Shown here in pieces: positions 2,816-24,267 of a stretch of 24,946 nt of DNA. How positions within the stretch are numbered: position 1 is the stretch's first letter; each line of letters opens with the position of its first letter. Below the pieces are notes generated by a model that saw nothing but the letters and a program-made list of their open reading frames with translations, did not search any database and had not been told where the DNA came from. The stretch comes from a virus: positions 1 to 24,946 of IMG/VR virus record IMGVR_UViG_3300034159_000069; one strand, 5' to 3'. The position numbers and the translations under genes were made by a program.

Positions 2816-3102
2816 TGGACACGCCCGCCCTCCACATCGCCCCGCCGCTGCCCTGCGCCGTGCGCACGCCCACGGAGACCGACCCCGAGCGGCGCTGCGG
2901 GCGCCCGGCCAGCGTCGCCCAGGCCGAGCGCCTGCCCACCGGCGCCTACACCATCCTGCCGATCTGCCGGGCCTGCGTCGAGGCAACCGCCCGGGTGTAC
3001 GGCCTCACCGACGAGCCGCCCGCGCCTGCCGCCCGCGCCGCCCGCCCGGGCCTCGTCGGCGACGCGCGGCTATGGACCCACACAGGAGATCACGATGCCT
3101 AA
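2812..3102 (+). CDS. small four-cysteine, possibly zinc-binding protein (96 aa)
   Basis: ATG 2812 overlaps the upstream stop (ATGA), with AGAGG at 2802-2806; the adjacent ATG at 2815 is in frame too. Cysteines fall at about residues 15, 29, 52 and 55. The last pair is a CxxC (ICRACVEA), which together could form a small zinc ribbon. The C-terminus is Ala/Arg/Pro-rich. Small zinc-finger proteins of this size are common among phage early genes. The actual role is unknown. Its last 8 nt overlap the ParB-like gene. Confidence 0.55.
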   Translation: MMDTPALHIAPPLPCAVRTPTETDPERRCGRPASVAQAERLPTGAYTILPICRACVEATARVYGLTDEPPAPAARAARPGLVGDARLWTHTGDHDA

Positions 3103-5140
3103 GCCATTGGCCCAGAGCCCGGACCCGCTGCCGAGCATCCCCCAGGAGCGCGGCACGAGCGCGATCAGCCCCGCAGTGCGCGCCCAGGCCGAGGGCGTGC
3201 TGGCCCAGGCCCGCACATTCATTGGCCGTGCCCAGGCCGCCCAGGCCGCCGTCACCGCCCTGGGCGCCGGCCCTGCCACGGCGTGGCGGCCCGGCCCCGA
3301 CGCCACCGGCGTCTACCGCCGGCCGCCATCGATGGCGGAGCGGATCATGGCCGCCCCGCGCGAGCTGGTCGACGGCCGCTGGCAGCCGCGCGAGACCTAC
3401 GACGAGGCGACCCTGGCCGAGCTGGCGGAGAGCATCCGCGAGCACGGCGTGATCGCGGACCTGCTGGCCATCGTCAACGAGTACGGCGAGCTGGAGCTGA
3501 TCGCCGGCCACCGCCGCAAGCGCGCCGCCCTGGCCGCCGGCGGGCGCGATGTGCCGGTCAAGGTGCTGGAGGTGACGGCCGCACAGGCGTTCGAGCTGGC
3601 GATCATCGACAACGATCAGCGTTCCGACCTGACCGACCTGGAGCGCGGCAAGGCCTACGAGCGGATCATCGCCGAGCAGCAGATTAGCGAGGCCGAGCTG
3701 GCGCGGCGCCTCGGCCGGGCCAGGGCCTACATTCAGCAGCGCCGCAAACTGGCCCAGGCCTGCCCCGAGCTCCAGCAGGCCTACATCGGCGGGCAGCTGG
3801 GCTTCACGCACGTCCGTGCGATCTGCGACGGCAGCGGCGGCGATCACGCGGTGCAACAGGCCGTGGTGGCCTACGAAATCAAGGAGATCAAGGCCGGTCG
3901 CCCGGACACGGCCACCTCCCTCCAGGAGCGCGCCGAGCGCACCGTGCGCGAGCAGTCCGGCGCCGCGCTGAAGAAGCTGGGCTGGAAGGTGGATCAGTAC
4001 TGGCAGGGCAACACGCAGCGCCACTACCACCACGCGCCGACGGCGCGGCCAGCCGAGTGGTCGAGCGCCGAGATCCTGGCCGCCGTACGCGAGCAGCGCC
4101 GACCGCCCGACGGCGCGACAGCGGCCCATCTCGACGGCGCCGCGCGGCTCGACCTGGAGCGCCACGGCTGGAGGATGAGCGCCACGGCCTGCGCGCCCTG
4201 GACGATCGCCGAGAAGGGCAAGGAGCTGATCGTCGGCGACGCCGGCGACCTGGCGCCGCAGATCGCCGCCGCCCGGGAGGCGCTCCAGAAGCTGGCCGAT
4301 CGGTTCGTCAAAGCCGGCTGGGCCGCCACCTGGAACCACACGACGCTGACGGCCACCCCGCCAGAGGGGGCAGCTGAGGGCAAGAAGAAGCCGAAGAAGC
4401 CGGCGCCCGTGCAGTGCCGCAGCATCAGCGAGGCCGAGAAGTTGATCCGGGCGATCGAGAAGGGCACTTGGACGCCGGAGCAGACGCAGCCCCGGGGTAG
4501 CGCGAGCGACAGCTACAAGGCCGAGTGCGAGCGCTGCAAGAAGCACACGAGCCAGTACAGCTACATCGAAAATGTACGGTTTTGCGCCGCCTGCGGCGTG
4601 ATCGTGGAGGCCGAGCATGCGGCGGAGCGGGCGAGGCTCGCGGCCTATGTGGACACGAAGCTCGGCGCCTGGCTCGACAGCGCGCCGCAGGTCGGGGCGG
4701 CGCTGATCCTGCTTCGGCGTCGGGACATCGCAGCGGTGGCGCCCGCACTGGCCGACGCCGCGCAGCGGGCGACGGTGCTGCGTGAGGAGCTGACGCAGCT
4801 GCTCTGGAGCAACCGGCGACACTTCAAATTCACGGAGGAGGCGCCCGCGCCCGCCGAGCCCGGCCACGCCGTGGCAGCCCCCGCCGAGGCGGCCCGCCCC
4901 GCAGGCCTCGACGACCTGATCGCCCGCCTGGCGGCCATCGAGGAGGCCATCCCCGGCGTGACGAGCTACGGGATGGTGGTGGAGCTCGGCAACCGGCTCG
5001 GCGACATCTCCGATGCGCTGGATCACTACGCCGACGCCGTGTCCGATGACGCGCGGGACGCGCTGATCCAGCGGATGGGCGAGGCCAGTGCCGCGCTCGA
5101 CGCCCTCGCGCTCACCACGACCCAGCGCGAGGCGGCGTGA
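3095..5140 (+). CDS. ParB-like protein with C-terminal zinc ribbon (681 aa)
   Basis: ATG 3095 follows AGGAG (3082-3086). Residues about 86-240 form a ParB/Spo0J-type N-terminal module: an IREHGV segment, then GHRRKRAA (138-145, the equivalent of the GERRxRA nucleotide-binding box), a Leu/Glu-rich helix, and an HTH at about 196-213 (ISEAELARRLGRARAYI). ParB proteins clamp on DNA at parS sites with CTP. After this the protein is unusual: a Lys/Pro linker at about 428-438, a CxxC-x15-CxxC zinc ribbon (Cys 478, 481, 497, 500) and about 180 further helical residues. It is about twice the length of chromosomal ParB, and no ParA is adjacent. Long ParB-like proteins are common in phages and plasmids, some acting as regulators or nucleases; a partition role here is unproven. 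Confidence 0.8.
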   Translation: MPKPLAQSPDPLPSIPQERGTSAISPAVRAQAEGVLAQARTFIGRAQAAQAAVTALGAGPATAWRPGPDATGVYRRPPSMAERIMAAPRELVDGRWQPRETYDEATLAELAESIREHGVIADLLAIVNEYGELELIAGHRRKRAALAAGGRDVPVKVLEVTAAQAFELAIIDNDQRSDLTDLERGKAYERIIAEQQISEAELARRLGRARAYIQQRRKLAQACPELQQAYIGGQLGFTHVRAICDGSGGDHAVQQAVVAYEIKEIKAGRPDTATSLQERAERTVREQSGAALKKLGWKVDQYWQGNTQRHYHHAPTARPAEWSSAEILAAVREQRRPPDGATAAHLDGAARLDLERHGWRMSATACAPWTIAEKGKELIVGDAGDLAPQIAAAREALQKLADRFVKAGWAATWNHTTLTATPPEGAAEGKKKPKKPAPVQCRSISEAEKLIRAIEKGTWTPEQTQPRGSASDSYKAECERCKKHTSQYSYIENVRFCAACGVIVEAEHAAERARLAAYVDTKLGAWLDSAPQVGAALILLRRRDIAAVAPALADAAQRATVLREELTQLLWSNRRHFKFTEEAPAPAEPGHAVAAPAEAARPAGLDDLIARLAAIEEAIPGVTSYGMVVELGNRLGDISDALDHYADAVSDDARDALIQRMGEASAALDALALTTTQREAA

Positions 5141-6939: not shown

Positions 6940-7331
6940 TGCCCACGCCAACCCATTGCGACCTGATGTGGATGCAGTCCATGACCGGCGCAGCCGAGGT
7001 GATCGCGCCGCACATCCCCATTGACGCCGCCCTCGGCGTGCTGCGCGACTACGCGGCCCGCGCCAATGAGCACGGCCCCGGCTCAATCTTCTACCTGACG
7101 GATAGCGATAACCCGCTGCACCAGGTGCGACGGGAGCTGAAGCGCGCACAGGAGCAGCACGCACCGCTGAACTCGGCGCACGAAGCCTACGCGGTGATCC
7201 TTGAAGAGCTTGACGAGTTTAAGGCCGAGGTCTGGAAGAAGCGCGCCGAGCGCAATCAGGAAGCGATGCGCAAGGAGCTCGTCCAGATCGCCGCGATGGC
7301 GATCAGGGCAATTGAGGATCTTGAGTTATGA
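6939..7331 (+). CDS. MazG-like all-alpha NTP-pyrophosphohydrolase family protein (130 aa)
   Basis: ATG 6939 overlaps the upstream stop (TGATG). The C-terminal half, about residues 78-128, has the four-helix MazG-type pattern: HEAYAVILEELDEFKAEVW, giving an EExxE metal-binding motif, then MRKELVQIAAMAIRAIEDL, giving the second ExxxxxxxxxxxxD helix. MazG-type enzymes hydrolyse nucleoside triphosphates to monophosphates. Phage copies may clean nucleotide pools or reduce alarmones. The N-terminal half (residues 1-70) is not recognised. The second-half Glu/Asp spacing is only approximately canonical, so catalytic activity is uncertain. Confidence 0.6.
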   Translation: MPTPTHCDLMWMQSMTGAAEVIAPHIPIDAALGVLRDYAARANEHGPGSIFYLTDSDNPLHQVRRELKRAQEQHAPLNSAHEAYAVILEELDEFKAEVWKKRAERNQEAMRKELVQIAAMAIRAIEDLEL

Positions 7332-7615
7332 AACCCAAGCTCGATGTCTACACCGTGTCCTCTGGCTACGGCGCGAACACCAAGCGCCCGTTCGTGGAGA
7401 TCGTCGCGCCGAAGCTGCGCGTCACGATGAGCAGCGCCGAGGCCCGGGCGCTCGCGCTGAACATCCTGGAGGCGGCGATCACGAGCGAGGCGGACGGCCT
7501 CATCGTGGAGTTTTTTACGAAGGAAGTCGAGACGAGCCAGCACGAGGCGGCGGCGATCCTTCAGACGTTCCGCCAGTACCGCGTCCGCTGGCGGGATGAG
7601 GCGGATATGGCATAA
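7328..7615 (+). CDS. hypothetical protein (95 aa)
   Basis: ATG 7328 overlaps the previous stop (ATGA). The protein opens with beta-type segments (KLDVYTVSSGYG, then RPFVEIVAPKLRVTM) followed by helices (SSAEARALALNILEAAI). This mixed fold suggests a small globular protein. No family is recognised. It is the last member of the coupled run. A hairpin (7619-7645) begins within 4 nt of its stop, so the transcript may end or be processed there. Confidence 0.55.
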   Translation: MKPKLDVYTVSSGYGANTKRPFVEIVAPKLRVTMSSAEARALALNILEAAITSEADGLIVEFFTKEVETSQHEAAAILQTFRQYRVRWRDEADMA

Positions 7616-7618
7616 CGA

Positions 7619-7645
7619 GGCCCCGGCCGCGATGCGGCTAGGGCC
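7619..7645 (+). other. imperfect hairpin between the accessory run and the par-like genes
   Basis: Arms GGCCCCGGCCGC (7619-7630) and GCGGCTAGGGCC (7634-7645) pair with one mismatch and one G-U across a 3-nt loop. It follows a stop and precedes the actin-like gene by about 55 nt. No T-run is present, so it is at most a weak terminator or attenuator separating the two units. Confidence 0.4.
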
Positions 7646-7700
7646 ACGGTATCACCCTGCGAGAGTTCTACGACACAAGCATAGCACAAGGAGCAACCCC

Positions 7701-8660
7701 ATGCGCGCCATCGGAATGATCATCGGCCACGGGTACGGCAAGGCGGTCTGCGGCGCCCGCGAGAGCGTCTTCCCCGCCGTCGCGGCGCAGGCCGTCGCCG
7801 GCGACTTCGAGACGATGCTAGGCAGCGGGGCGCGGGCGGTGCGGCTCAACGGCGCGGGCGAGTGGATCGTGGGCCAGGACGCGCTCACCTTCGCCCCCGG
7901 CCGGCTGGTGAGCATCCTCGACCGCTCGCGCTACGCATCGCCGTCGTTCGTGGCCCTGGCCCGCCACGCCCTGGCCCAGGTGATCGGCGACGCGCCCGGC
8001 CCGCTGCACATCGTCACCGGCATGCCGGCGGCGTGGTTCGCCGACAAGGCCGCGCGGGCGGACATCGAGGCGGCGGTGCTGGCGGCGGCCGAGCCCTGGG
8101 GCGCGGGCAGCCGCGTGAAGGTGGCCCCCGAGCCGGCCGGCGTCTACTACGCCCACGTCTTCAGCGGGGGCCAGCTCGACCCGGCCCGCACCCAGGGCGC
8201 CGTCGGCGTAGTGGACGCGGGCTACCGCGACATCGGCGTGGCCCTGTTCGTCGATGGGCGCTACGTGGGCGGCGAGAGCGTCCCCGGCGGCGCCGTGGAG
8301 GCGCTGCGGCAGATCAAGCGCCTGATCGCGCAGGCGTACCACCTGGAGCTGAGCCTCCACGAGGTCGACGCGGCCGTGCGCGCCGGGCTGATCGTCGATG
8401 GCCAGCACCGCCCGCTGCCCGCCGGATCGGCCGAGGCGCTGGCGGGCGGGCTAGGCCCGGCGCTGGCCGTGGGCCGCTCGCTCTGGCCCAACGGCGGCCG
8501 CTCGCTGCGGGCGCTCGTACTGGGCGGCGGCGGCGCCCACGCCCTGGGCGCGGGCCTGGCCAAGGAGTTCGCCCAGCTCACGACGCTCGACTGCCCCCAA
8601 CTGGCCGGCGCGGCGGGCTTCGCCGCCGCGGCCGCAGCGCAGATCGCGCGGGGGCTCTAG
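7701..8660 (+). CDS. ParM-like actin-fold ATPase (319 aa)
   Basis: ATG 7701 follows AAGGAG (7688-7693). The actin-type nucleotide motifs appear in order: a phosphate-1 loop at about 7-16 (GHGYGKAV, aligning with the D-x-G-x-G-x-x-K loop), phosphate-2 at about 168-181 (VGVVDAGYRDIGVALF, with Asp 172) and the adenosine motif at about 272-281 (LVLGGGGAHAL). The length suits plasmid and phage ParM/AlpA-type filament proteins, which push replicated DNA apart when bound by ParR on a centromere. The immediately adjacent small gene and palindrome array fit that system. The usual phosphate-1 aspartate is absent (Ile or Gly at the aligned position), which is odd for an active filament ATPase. An actin-like cytoskeletal role other than segregation is possible. 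Confidence 0.8.
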   Translation: MRAIGMIIGHGYGKAVCGARESVFPAVAAQAVAGDFETMLGSGARAVRLNGAGEWIVGQDALTFAPGRLVSILDRSRYASPSFVALARHALAQVIGDAPGPLHIVTGMPAAWFADKAARADIEAAVLAAAEPWGAGSRVKVAPEPAGVYYAHVFSGGQLDPARTQGAVGVVDAGYRDIGVALFVDGRYVGGESVPGGAVEALRQIKRLIAQAYHLELSLHEVDAAVRAGLIVDGQHRPLPAGSAEALAGGLGPALAVGRSLWPNGGRSLRALVLGGGGAHALGAGLAKEFAQLTTLDCPQLAGAAGFAAAAAAQIARGL

Positions 8661-8936
8661 GTGGCCGCCCGCCGCGTGCTCACGATCAGCCTGCCGAACA
8701 CCGACCCGGCCACCGTCGCCATCCAGGCGTGGCTCGACGGCCTGCCGGCCGACGCCGACCTGAGCGCCGAGGTGCGTCGGCTGCTGGCCGACGCGATCCG
8801 TATCGACGCGCGCCTGGCTGGCATCGAGACCCAGTTGGCCAGGATCGGCGTGGGCGTCGTGGCGCCTGCGCCCACGGCGCCCGGCCTCACCCCCGCGCAG
8901 GCGGCGACGCTCGATGTGCTGCTCGACTTCGACTAG
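8661..8936 (+). CDS. ParR-like DNA-binding adaptor (91 aa)
   Basis: GTG 8661 immediately follows the TAG of the actin-like gene, with a G-rich stretch (about 8650-8655) as ribosome binding site, so the two are translationally coupled. Residues about 3-45 fit a ribbon-helix-helix: a beta strand (RRVLTISLP), a helix (PATVAIQAWLDGLP), then a second helix (LSAEVRRLLADAIRI). A short coiled coil and a Pro-rich acidic tail follow, as in ParR, whose C-terminus binds the filament tip. The family assignment rests on size, fold pattern and position. The four palindromes starting at the next base are its natural candidate binding sites. Confidence 0.6.
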   Translation: MAARRVLTISLPNTDPATVAIQAWLDGLPADADLSAEVRRLLADAIRIDARLAGIETQLARIGVGVVAPAPTAPGLTPAQAATLDVLLDFD

Positions 8937-9102
8937 TGTATACAGCCGTTTGAGGCTTTAGGATGCCATGCAACACCGGAAAAACGCCAGATCTGTATAC
9001 AGATCAACGCGATTCGCGCCCCATTTGCACCTGATCTGTATACAGATCTGACGTTTTTTGAGGCTTCGAGCGCATCAGGACGCCGCAAACGACTGTATAC
9101 AG
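8937..9102. repeat. array of four TGTATACA palindromes (candidate parC centromere)
   Basis: TGTATACA occurs at 8937-8944, 8994-9001, 9037-9044 and 9094-9101. Sites 2 and 3 extend to the perfect 16-bp palindrome GATCTGTATACAGATC (8990-9005 and 9033-9048). Site 4 extends to 10 bp (9093-9102). Centres are 57, 43 and 57 bp apart, so the array is two copies of a 100-bp period. TTTGAGGCTT recurs at 8949-8958 and 9057-9066, once in each period. The array starts at the base after the ParR-like stop and is AT-richer than its surroundings. A centromere or autoregulatory operator is the likely role. Confidence 0.7.
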
Positions 9103-9127
9103 ATTTCGACCGAACAGGAACAAAGAA

Positions 9128-9182
9128 GCGGGCCGGTAGCTCACCCCCGGCCCGCCGCTGGCGAAGGGCCACCACGCCAGCG
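9128..9182. other. two tandem hairpins ahead of the membrane-protein gene
   Basis: The first hairpin has perfect 9-bp arms GCGGGCCGG (9128-9136) and CCGGCCCGC (9147-9155). The second has 8-bp arms CGCTGGCG (9156-9163) and CGCCAGCG (9175-9182). They stand back to back between the palindrome array and the 9215 start. No T-run follows. They may end transcription of the par-like genes or structure the leader of the next operon. Confidence 0.45.
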
Positions 9183-9214
9183 TAGCACGGAATCTACCAC
9201 GAAAGGGCCTTCCC

Positions 9215-9826
9215 ATGCAGAACGAGAACCGCCCCAGCTGCGCCGCGCGCCTGCTCGACATCCGCACCTATGTGATCGCCGCCCGCCGGGCGATGGCGGC
9301 CATCGACCCGGCGACGGCACTGTTTATGATCTTCGTGTTCGGCCTGATCGCCCTCATCCTCACCCCGATCTACCTCACCTTCGATCTGGGCTCAACCTGG
9401 ACCTTCACCACCGGGCTGCGGGACGCCGCCGCCCCCGCCGTCGCGCAGATGACCGCCCAGGCCGAAACCTGGCTCCAGCTGAGCGTGGGCGCCCTGCTGG
9501 CCGGCGTCATCCTCACCTCGTTTACCCTGCTGCCCTCCCTGTTTGAGCTGGCCTTTCCCAGCGTGCAGCACCCTCTGCTGAGCGTCATCCTGCTGTGCTC
9601 CATCGTGTTCGACTATGTGACCGACTGGGGCAAAACGTGGGCGCTGGTGGGCACCTGGACGGATAACCCCGCCGTGCATTTTGTGGGCGCGGTGTTTCTG
9701 TGCGCGTTCTTCTCGGTCGGTGTGCAGGCCCTGCTGGTGCTGTGCATCACCGTGATCATCTTTGGGATCATCGCCCTGGTGCGTGGCGGCAGGCGGCAGG
9801 CCGAGGCGATCATCCTTCAGCCGTAA
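9215..9826 (+). CDS. multi-pass membrane protein (203 aa)
   Basis: ATG 9215 follows AAAGGG (9202-9207). Hydrophobic segments at about residues 34-55 (ATALFMIFVFGLIALILTPIY), 89-110, 118-135 and 150-190 predict four to five transmembrane helices, with a short basic N-terminus and a basic C-terminal turn (RGGRRQ). No family is recognised. It is followed after 14 nt by the FtsK/HerA-like ATPase, and the pair plus the 107-aa membrane protein form one operon. An assembly or DNA-transport role at the membrane is inferred only from this neighbourhood. Confidence 0.65.
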   Translation: MQNENRPSCAARLLDIRTYVIAARRAMAAIDPATALFMIFVFGLIALILTPIYLTFDLGSTWTFTTGLRDAAAPAVAQMTAQAETWLQLSVGALLAGVILTSFTLLPSLFELAFPSVQHPLLSVILLCSIVFDYVTDWGKTWALVGTWTDNPAVHFVGAVFLCAFFSVGVQALLVLCITVIIFGIIALVRGGRRQAEAIILQP

Positions 9827-9840
9827 GGGAGGGCCGCACC

Positions 9841-11268
9841 ATGTCCCTCATCACGGCTGAGGAGCTCGCACGCGGGCTGCTGATCGGCACGTTCGGCGGG
9901 GCCGCCGGGCTCTGCACGCTCGCGTTTCCCGGCTCGGCCCTCTGGCTTGTGCCCGCCGGCCTGGCGGTGGGTGGCTGCGCCCTCACCATTCCTGAGGTGC
10001 GCCAGGAGGCGGTCAAGGCCCTGCCCTACCTGGAGTCGGCCCGCCGCGCCCTGCCCGCCCCTGATCTGCCCGCCCTGGCCGACCGGATGCGCCGCGCCCT
10101 GCCCGTGCTGCCTGGCCAGGGCGCCCCAGCTGGCGCCCCAGCGGCCAGGCGGCCCGCCGCACCCGATCCGCTGATCGAGACGCTGGAGAACACGCCGCAC
10201 CGCTTGATCATCGGGCACACCCGGGGCGGAAAGACGACGCTTATTCACCACATGGCGACGGACTGGGCCGCCGCTGGCGAGCGGGTATTGGTCGCCGATC
10301 CCGATGCCGCGCCTGGTCTCTGGCCAGGGTGCGAGGTGTGGGGGCACGGCGACAACGTGATCGCCATCGGCGGGATGCTGGACATTGTGGCCGATGAGGT
10401 GACAGCTAGGCGGGCGGCCAGGGCGCAAGGTGTGCGCCGCTTCCCGCCGCTGCACGTCGTGATCGATGAGGCCCAGGACGTGCTGCCCGCCCTCGATGGC
10501 GGGCTAGAGCTTTTCGAGGATGTGGCCAGGCGCGGCGGGAAGCTCAATATCAGGATGACGGTAGGGGTACAGGATAAGCAGGTAAAGACCCTCGGCTTGC
10601 AGGGAAAGAGCGAGGTTCTCCGCAACCTGCAGGTTGCCGACGTGCTCAAAAATCGGGAGGGCCGCCGGGTAGCGGTGCTGCGCGACGCCGAGACGGGCAA
10701 GAAGATCACCTACCCGATCCCGCTGCTTACCGACCCTGAGACGCTGATCATCGCCCCGCCAGCTGCGGCTGCGCGGCCCGCGGCGCCCGTGTCCAAGGCC
10801 CCGACCGTGTCCAACCAGGAGGCCGCCGATCTGCTGTCTAGCCTGTTCGCCGAGGCCGTGTCTAGCGCGTCAGGACGCACGGACACGGTCGCCCCCGTGT
10901 CCGTGTCCGTGTCCAACGCAATGGACACGGACACGGACACGGACACGCCTCCAGCGACCGTGTCCATGCGTCTGGGCGCCGACGGCCATCACCTGACGGT
11001 CAACGTCAACGCCCGGGCCGAGGCTGCCCCCGCTGCTGGGCGTGGCCGCCCCCGCCGTGGCCATGGGCTTGACATGCGCCGCCGCCGACAGATGGTGCAG
11101 GCCGCTCAGGGCGACGCTCACAAGGCCGAGCTTCAGCAAGCCTACGAGACTCGTAAGGCTGCCGGCATGAGCTACCGCAAGGCATACGCCGAGCTGGGAG
11201 GCAACGGCGAAGAGACCCGCGTCTGGTGGCGTGCCGCCTCTGAACCGCAAGAAAAAAAGCAATCATGA
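9841..11268 (+). CDS. membrane-anchored FtsK/HerA-type P-loop ATPase (475 aa)
   Basis: ATG 9841 has GGGAGGG (9828-9834) upstream. Residues about 13-48 hold one or two hydrophobic membrane segments. A short linker leads to Walker A GHTRGGKTT (125-133) and Walker B LHVVIDEAQD (about 204-213), followed by a GVQDKQ sensor-like stretch. This matches the FtsK/SpoIIIE/HerA DNA-pump superfamily in compact form. After about residue 305 the protein is a disordered Ser/Thr/Asp/Val tail, with VSVSVS and DTDTDTDT encoded by GTGTCC/GGACAC hexamers. An AT-hook-like GRGRPRRG (about 400) and an HTH-like end (MSYRKAYAELGG) follow. It probably moves or tethers DNA at the membrane. Conjugation coupling protein and chromosome-dimer pump are alternatives. 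Confidence 0.75.
   Translation: MSLITAEELARGLLIGTFGGAAGLCTLAFPGSALWLVPAGLAVGGCALTIPEVRQEAVKALPYLESARRALPAPDLPALADRMRRALPVLPGQGAPAGAPAARRPAAPDPLIETLENTPHRLIIGHTRGGKTTLIHHMATDWAAAGERVLVADPDAAPGLWPGCEVWGHGDNVIAIGGMLDIVADEVTARRAARAQGVRRFPPLHVVIDEAQDVLPALDGGLELFEDVARRGGKLNIRMTVGVQDKQVKTLGLQGKSEVLRNLQVADVLKNREGRRVAVLRDAETGKKITYPIPLLTDPETLIIAPPAAAARPAAPVSKAPTVSNQEAADLLSSLFAEAVSSASGRTDTVAPVSVSVSNAMDTDTDTDTPPATVSMRLGADGHHLTVNVNARAEAAPAAGRGRPRRGHGLDMRRRRQMVQAAQGDAHKAELQQAYETRKAAGMSYRKAYAELGGNGEETRVWWRAASEPQEKKQS
10789..10965. repeat. GTGTCC/GGACAC hexamer cluster with 20-bp perfect hairpin
   Basis: Eleven hexamers lie in about 180 bp of coding sequence: GTGTCC at 10789, 10807, 10897, 10903, 10909 and 10960; GGACAC at 10881, 10923, 10929, 10935 and 10941. 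The runs at 10895-10914 and 10923-10942 are exact reverse complements around an 8-nt loop. They encode the VSVSVS and DTDTDTDT stretches of the ATPase tail. It is either expanded low-complexity coding DNA or a DNA site for this or another protein. Confidence 0.7.
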
Positions 11269-23175: not shown

Positions 23176-24267
23176 CTACGCGATCCCGGTGATCACGGTG
23201 ATGCTCTCCGGCTCGACGATCACGGGCAGCGACGTCTGCCAGCCCTCGCCGATGATGCGCGGCGGCTTATCCTCGTGCAGCTCCGAGCGGATCACCCGGC
23301 CCGGCCCGGCCTGCCCCGCCGCCCGGCCCAGCGCCAGGTAGCCCATGGTGTTCGGCAGGAAGAGCGGCTCCTCGTCGCCCAGGTCGAGGCTCACATCGCG
23401 CCCGGTCAGGCCCAGCAGCACAAAGACGGTGTTCGGCAAAAAGCGCGTGCTGCCGCTCTCGGTGCGGTACTGGAGGTCGTAGACCTCAATCGGCGGCAGA
23501 TCCTCGGCGGCCAGCGCCTGGTTGATCGCGGCCAGGCTAGCCCGGTCGCCCTGTATCTGCACCGCGTTGCCGGACACGACCAGCTTGCCGGTGCGCGCGG
23601 CCACCTTGGCGTTGCCGCCCAGGATGCCCATCACCTTGCGCGAGGTGACGATCCGCGAGACGGCGAAGCCCTTGTCGGCCAGCAGCTGCGCCATGGCGTA
23701 GATGTCGGCAAAGGGGTCGTAGGCGTCCGAGGACCAGGTGCCGCCGGCGGCGGCGCGGTGGCCCGCCGGGTTGGGGTAGGCCACGTCCTCGGCGTAGGCG
23801 TTGAAGCCGCGCCGCTCCACCTTCGCGCTCACGATCGCCTGCCAGATCGCGGCCTCGTTGCGCTCGATGAGGGCCAGGTTGACCGTGGTGTCGAGCCAGC
23901 CGATCAGCTGCAGCATGGCGTCCATACTGGCATCGCTGGCCAGCAGGCGCAGCAGGGCGTCGTACTCGCGGGCGGTGAACTCGCGCTTGATGTCGCTCTC
24001 GGCCAGCTCCACCAGCATCTCGCCCACCAGCTCGCCGCCCTTGAGCTGGGTGGGGCTGTAGCGCGTGCCGTCGTTGGCGACGATCGTGCGGTAGCGGATC
24101 GCGGTCTCGCGGAAGGCGTTCTCGGGCACGGTCTGCTCGGGCAGCAGCTCCGCGCCCAGGTAGCGCCGGGCGCCGCGGCCGAACTGGGCCTGCGGGTTGG
24201 TGGCGATCTGCGCGTAGCGGCCCCCGGTCTGGAGCTCATCCAGGGCCGTGCGAATATCCATCGGCAT
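23176..24267 (-). CDS. major capsid protein, lambda gpE-like (363 aa)
   Basis: It starts at ATG 24267 behind GAGGAG (24277-24282); a second in-frame ATG at 24261 is possible. A full-length HK97-fold shell protein of the gpE family is indicated by size, by the QLKGGELVGEMLVELAESDI and DAMLQLIGWLDTTVNL stretches, and by the C-terminal pattern of strands (ARTGKLVVSGNAVQIQGD, then PIEVYDLQYRTESGSTRFLP) and the loop before the end. Capsomers of gpE-type phages need a separate decoration protein, which the next upstream gene supplies. No maturation protease or scaffold is in the window. Confidence 0.85.
   Translation of the reverse strand: MPMDIRTALDELQTGGRYAQIATNPQAQFGRGARRYLGAELLPEQTVPENAFRETAIRYRTIVANDGTRYSPTQLKGGELVGEMLVELAESDIKREFTAREYDALLRLLASDASMDAMLQLIGWLDTTVNLALIERNEAAIWQAIVSAKVERRGFNAYAEDVAYPNPAGHRAAAGGTWSSDAYDPFADIYAMAQLLADKGFAVSRIVTSRKVMGILGGNAKVAARTGKLVVSGNAVQIQGDRASLAAINQALAAEDLPPIEVYDLQYRTESGSTRFLPNTVFVLLGLTGRDVSLDLGDEEPLFLPNTMGYLALGRAAGQAGPGRVIRSELHEDKPPRIIGEGWQTSLPVIVEPESITVITGIA

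Follow-up and report, generated by a model that had tools for sequence, protein, structure and literature searches.

What is the role of the array of short palindromic sites that lies directly behind a parM- and parR-like gene pair in a phage genome? We have analysed a stretch of 24,946 nucleotides (hereafter the window; the whole of IMG/VR record IMGVR_UViG_3300034159_000069, positions 1 to 24,946) in which such an array is found. The window belongs to a tailed phage, with genes for a capsid protein E and a tape measure protein. Its host is probably a member of the Chloroflexia, filamentous green bacteria, since the nearest ParM is found in Oscillochloris. The capsid protein (window 23176-24267) has no match in 50,697 phage records and three in IMG/VR (100%, 58% and 45%), so the phage group appears to be little described. 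The related phage with the 58% identical capsid protein (G002) carries neither parM nor the array.

By its sequence, the first gene product of the pair is an actin-like protein of the ParM type, matching Pfam ALP_N with an E-value of 3.2e-11 (44.1 bits, cut-off 26.3) and the PHROG 691 partition protein with 5.9e-14. The phosphate-2 motif DAGYRD and the adenosine motif GGGGA are invariant in the four close relatives. The AlphaFold model of this protein (pLDDT 39.8) was of no use. Its N-terminal phosphate loop (IGHGYGK, window 7701-7750) lacks the usual Asp, and the Asp-less loop (GHGY-K) is seen in all four close relatives and in much of a more distant clade. The second product has no family or profile match; a similar gene is kept behind parM in all the close relatives, with 37-43% identity. 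Its AlphaFold model (mean pLDDT 70.7) consists of an extended N-terminus, helices at residues 16-27 and 34-61, a linker and a C-terminal helix at 78-87. A Foldseek search of solved structures in the PDB with this model gave no match. The predicted arrangement would be that expected of a ParR adapter monomer, which in type II systems is a small DNA-binding protein with a ribbon-helix-helix N-terminus, and the place and size of the gene fit this assignment.

The sequence TGTATACA occurs four times in the window, all within the array, starting at 8937, 8994, 9037 and 9094 and thus spaced by 57, 43 and 57 bp; 0.02 occurrences are expected in the whole window and none of 100 shuffles reached four. 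The first site begins at the first base past the TAG stop of the 91-aa ORF (8661-8936). Both inner sites are contained in an identical palindromic 16-mer, GATCTGTATACAGATC, at 8990-9005 and 9033-9048. The exact count bears out the initial annotation as to the four sites, their 57/43/57 spacing, their start at the base after the stop and the 16-bp palindrome shared by the inner pair. It had also placed TTTGAGGCTT once in each 100-bp period: there are indeed two copies (8949-8958 and 9057-9066), but they are 108 bp apart. With up to two mismatches allowed, no CTGTATACAG-like sites were found beyond the array in the 24.9 kb, and there is no site-like match upstream of the window parM. Segment 8937-9006 is an inverted duplicate of 9032-9101 (77% over 70 nt; 72% over 81 bp in an ungapped alignment). 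Since the halves are inverted copies, the window array is one 57-bp two-site module duplicated head to head (Table 1). The G+C content drops at the array from ~77% to 52%. Neither an 11-bp periodicity in the array nor tandem repeats at window 7000-9500 were detected. Between the array and the membrane protein gene lies a G+C-rich inverted repeat (9127-9160, GCGGGCCGG...CCGGCCCGC), perhaps a terminator without a T-run.

Table 1. Coordinates of the genes and array elements at the parMR locus of the window
Feature	Position	Strand	Remarks
parM-like actin ATPase gene, 319 aa (P0001)	7701..8660	+	Pfam ALP_N, PHROG 691
parR-like gene, 91 aa (P0002), GTG start right after parM stop	8661..8936	+	
Module A, dyad sites 1 and 2, spaced by 57 bp	8937..9001		Same 56-58-bp module in L132, L152/L179, L153
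Outer site 1, TGTATACA, least palindromic of the four; preceded by the TAG stop	8937..8944		
Site 2, GATCTGTATACAGATC	8990..9005		Inner
Site 3, GATCTGTATACAGATC	9033..9048		Inner
Module B, module A inverted	9037..9101		Inverted-copy alignments
Site 4, CTGTATACAG	9093..9102		
Membrane protein gene, outside proposed centromere	9215..9826	+	No BLAST relative behind L132, L152, L153 arrays
P-loop ATPase gene, weakly FtsK/TraD-like, outside proposed centromere	9841..11268	+	No BLAST relative behind relatives' arrays

Relatives of the window ParM were sought by a scan of bacterial genomes and then in 158 genomes of the class to which Oscillochloris ZM17-4 belongs. The identity to the proteins of three Chloroflexota genomes is 62-66% overall: 65% for a protein on contig L132 of Oscillochloris sp. 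ZM17-4 and 62-63% for those of genomes G041 and G038, with a more distant set at 27-38% in the 158-genome search. In a maximum-likelihood tree of ParM the four close members form a clade with 100/100 support. All four have a short parR that overlaps parM or comes after it, followed by an array 0-25 bp past the parR stop; the presence of the array in relatives that keep the gene pair had been put forward as a test, and it is found behind parR in all three. In Oscillochloris the site is TGTATGACA, at 1318(+), 1374(-), 1406(+) and 1463(+), with spacings of 56, 32 and 57 bp. In G041 (locus L152) it is GTGTTGAACAC, at 4355, 4413, 4437 and 4495 (58/24/58). A second G041 array follows 365 bp further on and is complete in contig C316 (L179), again with 58/24/58 spacing; the 127 bp common to C316 and the end of C483 suggest that these two contigs join. 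The G041 modules are direct, not inverted. The array of G038 (L153) has three sites, at 10696, 10719 and 10754, with 58 bp between the first and the last.

The sites in the clade have the common form TGT-N2/3-ACA, while the middle bases differ from element to element; the core is GTTGAAC in both G038 and G041. Each element's motif, as defined after looking, is absent elsewhere on the scanned contigs, with one exception in G038, a match with two mismatches. When the whole genomes G004, G038 and G041 were searched for the two-site patterns, these arrays alone were returned. The distance between the pairs varies (middle spacings of 43, 32 and 24 bp), and the 100-bp period of the initial annotation, which is the sum of 57 and 43 bp in the window, is not kept in the relatives (88 and 82 bp there). 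Given the window's spacing and with the inner sites placed at random in the observed spans, the probability that both outer spacings of both the Oscillochloris and the G041 arrays would fall at 56-58 bp by chance is ~1.5e-6. In these four elements the conserved unit is a pair of dyad sites 57-58 bp apart rather than a 100-bp period. As a geometric remark only, 57.75 bp is 5.5 helical turns. The site word has changed in concert inside each element, as would be the case for a site read by a co-evolving protein. The N-terminal strand of ParR does not correlate with the site: L132 and L153 share ISLALP while their sites differ. Among all the window proteins, ParM and ParR alone have BLAST relatives at the close loci.

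Several other repeats were seen at these loci. The G041 array is duplicated ~365 bp apart (L152 4355-4845 and L179), with extra repeats, GCCTGTTTACGGCATCAGGAGGC, between and after the copies. Behind the G038 array (L153 10839-10885) there is a near-perfect hairpin with 20-bp arms (GTGTCATACGGTGTTCG...) that contains TGTCATAC, similar to the Oscillochloris site. In Oscillochloris, CTCCGCATCACCGACCCGCTTTGAAGGGTTTTGAAAC repeats with unique spacers, CRISPR-like, are found at L132 4276-4600 and 6600-6900 and at L155 1-400; these repeat arrays flank a transposase-like gene on the contig.

A different layout is found in a distant clade of five related genomes of 6-6.8 Mb (L141, L142, L143, L144 and L148). 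Here GTTGAAC/GTTCAAC recurs within parR itself, towards the 3' end of the ORF, in steps of 11, 22, 33, 44 or 55 bp, and there is one match or none elsewhere in each locus. Ten tandem 11-bp repeats lie within the 3' end of parR in four of the five genomes, and four such repeats in L143. The identity at lag 11 is 0.56-0.57 versus 0.32-0.33 in codon shuffles, a level reached in 0 of 2000 shuffles (6 of 2000 for L143). The reading frame of the heptamer GTTGAAC varies between copies, and one copy is in reverse orientation. Given these frames and a period of 11 bp, which is not divisible by 3, a protein repeat is ruled out as the source of the array. Ten is also the number of repeats in parC of plasmid R1, and the layout in the distant clade is that of R1 parC, but placed within the part of parR that codes for the linker. 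In L139 the 11-bp signal at the same place in parR is weaker (0.47), and in L151 repeats of GGTTATACC/GTATAACC were recognized by eye at that place. In the first ~260 bp of the oriented loci L141, L142, L144 and L148 there are dense TGACAC/GTGTCA (or ATGACAC) repeats, both direct and inverted, ~1.3 kb upstream of parM and just before a primase-like gene; these are probably an origin or operator.

In our judgement the window array is quite probably the centromere (parC) of a ParMRC-like (type II) partition system, bound by ParR and located at the 3' end of parR. The type II features at hand are an actin-like ParM motor and a repeated cis site beside parMR that is kept together with these genes. 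The array keeps its place and module spacing, changes its site in concert within each element and is independent of the genes downstream. Such a system would maintain the phage, or its prophage in plasmid-like form, as the host cells divide. Each 57-bp module would be occupied at its two dyad sites by dimers of the 91-aa ParR, and the four occupied sites would form a compact complex; the C-terminal helices of ParR, held on a flexible linker, may then cap growing ParM filaments, which would push sister copies apart. The initial annotation had proposed a candidate new centromere, and this proposal is upheld as regards conservation of the array with the gene pair, with corrections to the 100-bp period and to what was said of palindromes and of the 3' position; binding by ParR and a function in partition are the conditional part of the assignment. 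The points that count against it are the small size of the close family (four elements, of which G038 has three sites), the variable middle spacing, the negative family and structure searches with ParR, a ParR N-terminal strand that does not follow the site, and the Asp-less phosphate loop of ParM.

We also lean, with little more than even confidence, towards a broader proposal: that the centromere bound by ParR was relocated, in mobile elements of Chloroflexota, to the 3' end of parR, where it would take two architectures. One would consist of ten 11-bp iterons within the linker-coding part of parR and the other of two 57-bp paired-dyad modules behind the stop, with the site word rewritten in concert in each element.

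Comparison with known systems shows both likenesses and differences. As in the ParMRC systems of R1 and pSK41, there is an actin-like ParM, a small adapter gene directly downstream and a repeated cis site beside the genes. However, in pSK41 and R1 parC is a tandem array of 10-11-bp repeats located at the promoter that precedes parM (PMC4911067, PMC5016525), whereas the sites described here lie behind or inside parR, and those of the window family are spaced palindromes in 57-bp modules with no tandem direct repeats. The parC of Clostridium botulinum cParCMR comprises three palindromic repeats, to which cParR binds in EMSA; this parC is placed immediately upstream of cParMR in the text of that report and after cParR in a figure legend, and no conserved parC was found among C. 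botulinum cParCMR strains (PMC12270681). The window array resembles it in being palindromic and, by the figure legend, in position, but differs in that spacing and place are conserved across elements. The window ParM has no close sequence kinship to cParM; it matches Dh-cParM1 weakly (E 0.008). According to a review, par sites may also be found on either side of the operon (PMC5016525). The earlier statement that classical ParR centromeres are upstream direct repeats, and not palindromes behind parR, was therefore too strong: both a palindromic parC and a 3' position have precedents. In srpMRC of the SXT/R391 ICE, an integrative element, four direct and inverted 13-bp repeats upstream of srpM are bound by SrpR, a small protein without ParR homology (PMC4489591); the four repeated sites and the small, in the window putative, adapter without a family match are shared with the window, the position upstream of the motor gene is not. 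The AlpAC/alpS system of prophage CGP3 likewise combines a phage-encoded actin, an adapter and a repeated DNA site, but alpS (TTAAnnG) is repeated in the promoter region upstream of the operon (PMC5539076), while the window sites are TGTATACA and lie behind parR. Phage B83 has iterons before parM (PMC6669507). We found no report in the open-access literature of a conserved 57-bp pair or of iterons inside parR.

The alternative that fares best is that the sites are an operator, bound by ParR or another phage regulator and controlling the membrane protein/ATPase operon beginning at 9215. The first gene of this operon starts 113 bp past the array, known ParR proteins double as repressors at parC, and the genes behind the array in L132 and G038 likewise encode a membrane protein and a P-loop or FtsK-like ATPase. 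These downstream proteins, however, have no BLAST similarity to those of the window, and behind both G041 arrays no clear gene is seen for ~500 bp, after which unrelated ORFs begin. In the distant clade a different gene follows parR in L142 and L143. The gap in the window contains no sigma-70-like promoter, although promoters of Chloroflexota may differ. With the array kept where the next genes are unrelated, an operator shared with the following operon, the second suggestion of the initial annotation, is disfavoured and we consider it unlikely.

It is less likely still that the array is a parS-like site for the phage's own ParB-like protein (681 aa, 3095-5140). With their 16-bp palindromes the inner sites are of the size that ParB proteins bind (palindromes of 14-16 bp), and the ParB_N and HTH domains of the 681-aa protein are clear; but the ParB matches of G038, G041 and G004 are on contigs other than those with parMR and the array, and the sites of the distant clade are 11-bp iterons inside parR, unlike parS. 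The 681-aa protein, encoded in the early region (ParB_N 7e-17), is a possible second partition or occlusion factor in the same phage.

Equally improbable is an RNA element or bidirectional terminator, in which the inverted duplication would form a long hairpin and the T-runs after the inner palindromes would end transcription. The window RNA does fold strongly (z = -10.0), because of the inverted duplication in this element, and there are two terminator-like matches, one on each strand. The fold is far weaker in the relatives (z of -2.5 in L132, -2.0 in G041 and -4.6 in G038), the G041 modules are not inverted, and there is no Rfam match. Least probable of all are replication origin iterons, or a recombination or transfer site that merely lies beside parMR: origins typically have repeated sites in A+T-rich DNA, and the integrative element G038 encodes a DnaB-like helicase and a serine recombinase, but no replication gene follows the array, which tracks parMR and not rep genes across elements and lies inside parR in the distant clade, where there is a separate TGACAC array before the primase gene.

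Beyond these genomes, we found no close ParM relatives in viral contigs or in plasmids. The phage search for ParM returned only Bacillus phage G gp506 (30%), and the two-site TGTATACA pattern was scattered in viral contigs among the matches listed. No array was found behind parM in conventional ParM/StbA plasmids of Paraburkholderia, Bacillus and Flagellatimonas; the Bacillus plasmid has two 18-bp repeats upstream instead. The 3' position of the array thus seems limited to Chloroflexota loci. If the centromere assignment is correct, these would be, to our knowledge, the first ParMRC-type centromeres in Chloroflexota, carried by phages and integrative elements, and they would show that a centromere can be located within, or immediately after, the gene of the protein that binds it. 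The pair, constant at 57 bp while the site word differs between elements, would then be a natural experiment on the evolution of ParR specificity and incompatibility, for which the four arrays and four ParRs provide a ready swap matrix. Lastly, truncated ParM-like genes that have no evident parR are found in L135 and L166; the tandem repeats of 12 bp that come after them, similar to CACCAGTGCTGG, are possible orphan centromeres.
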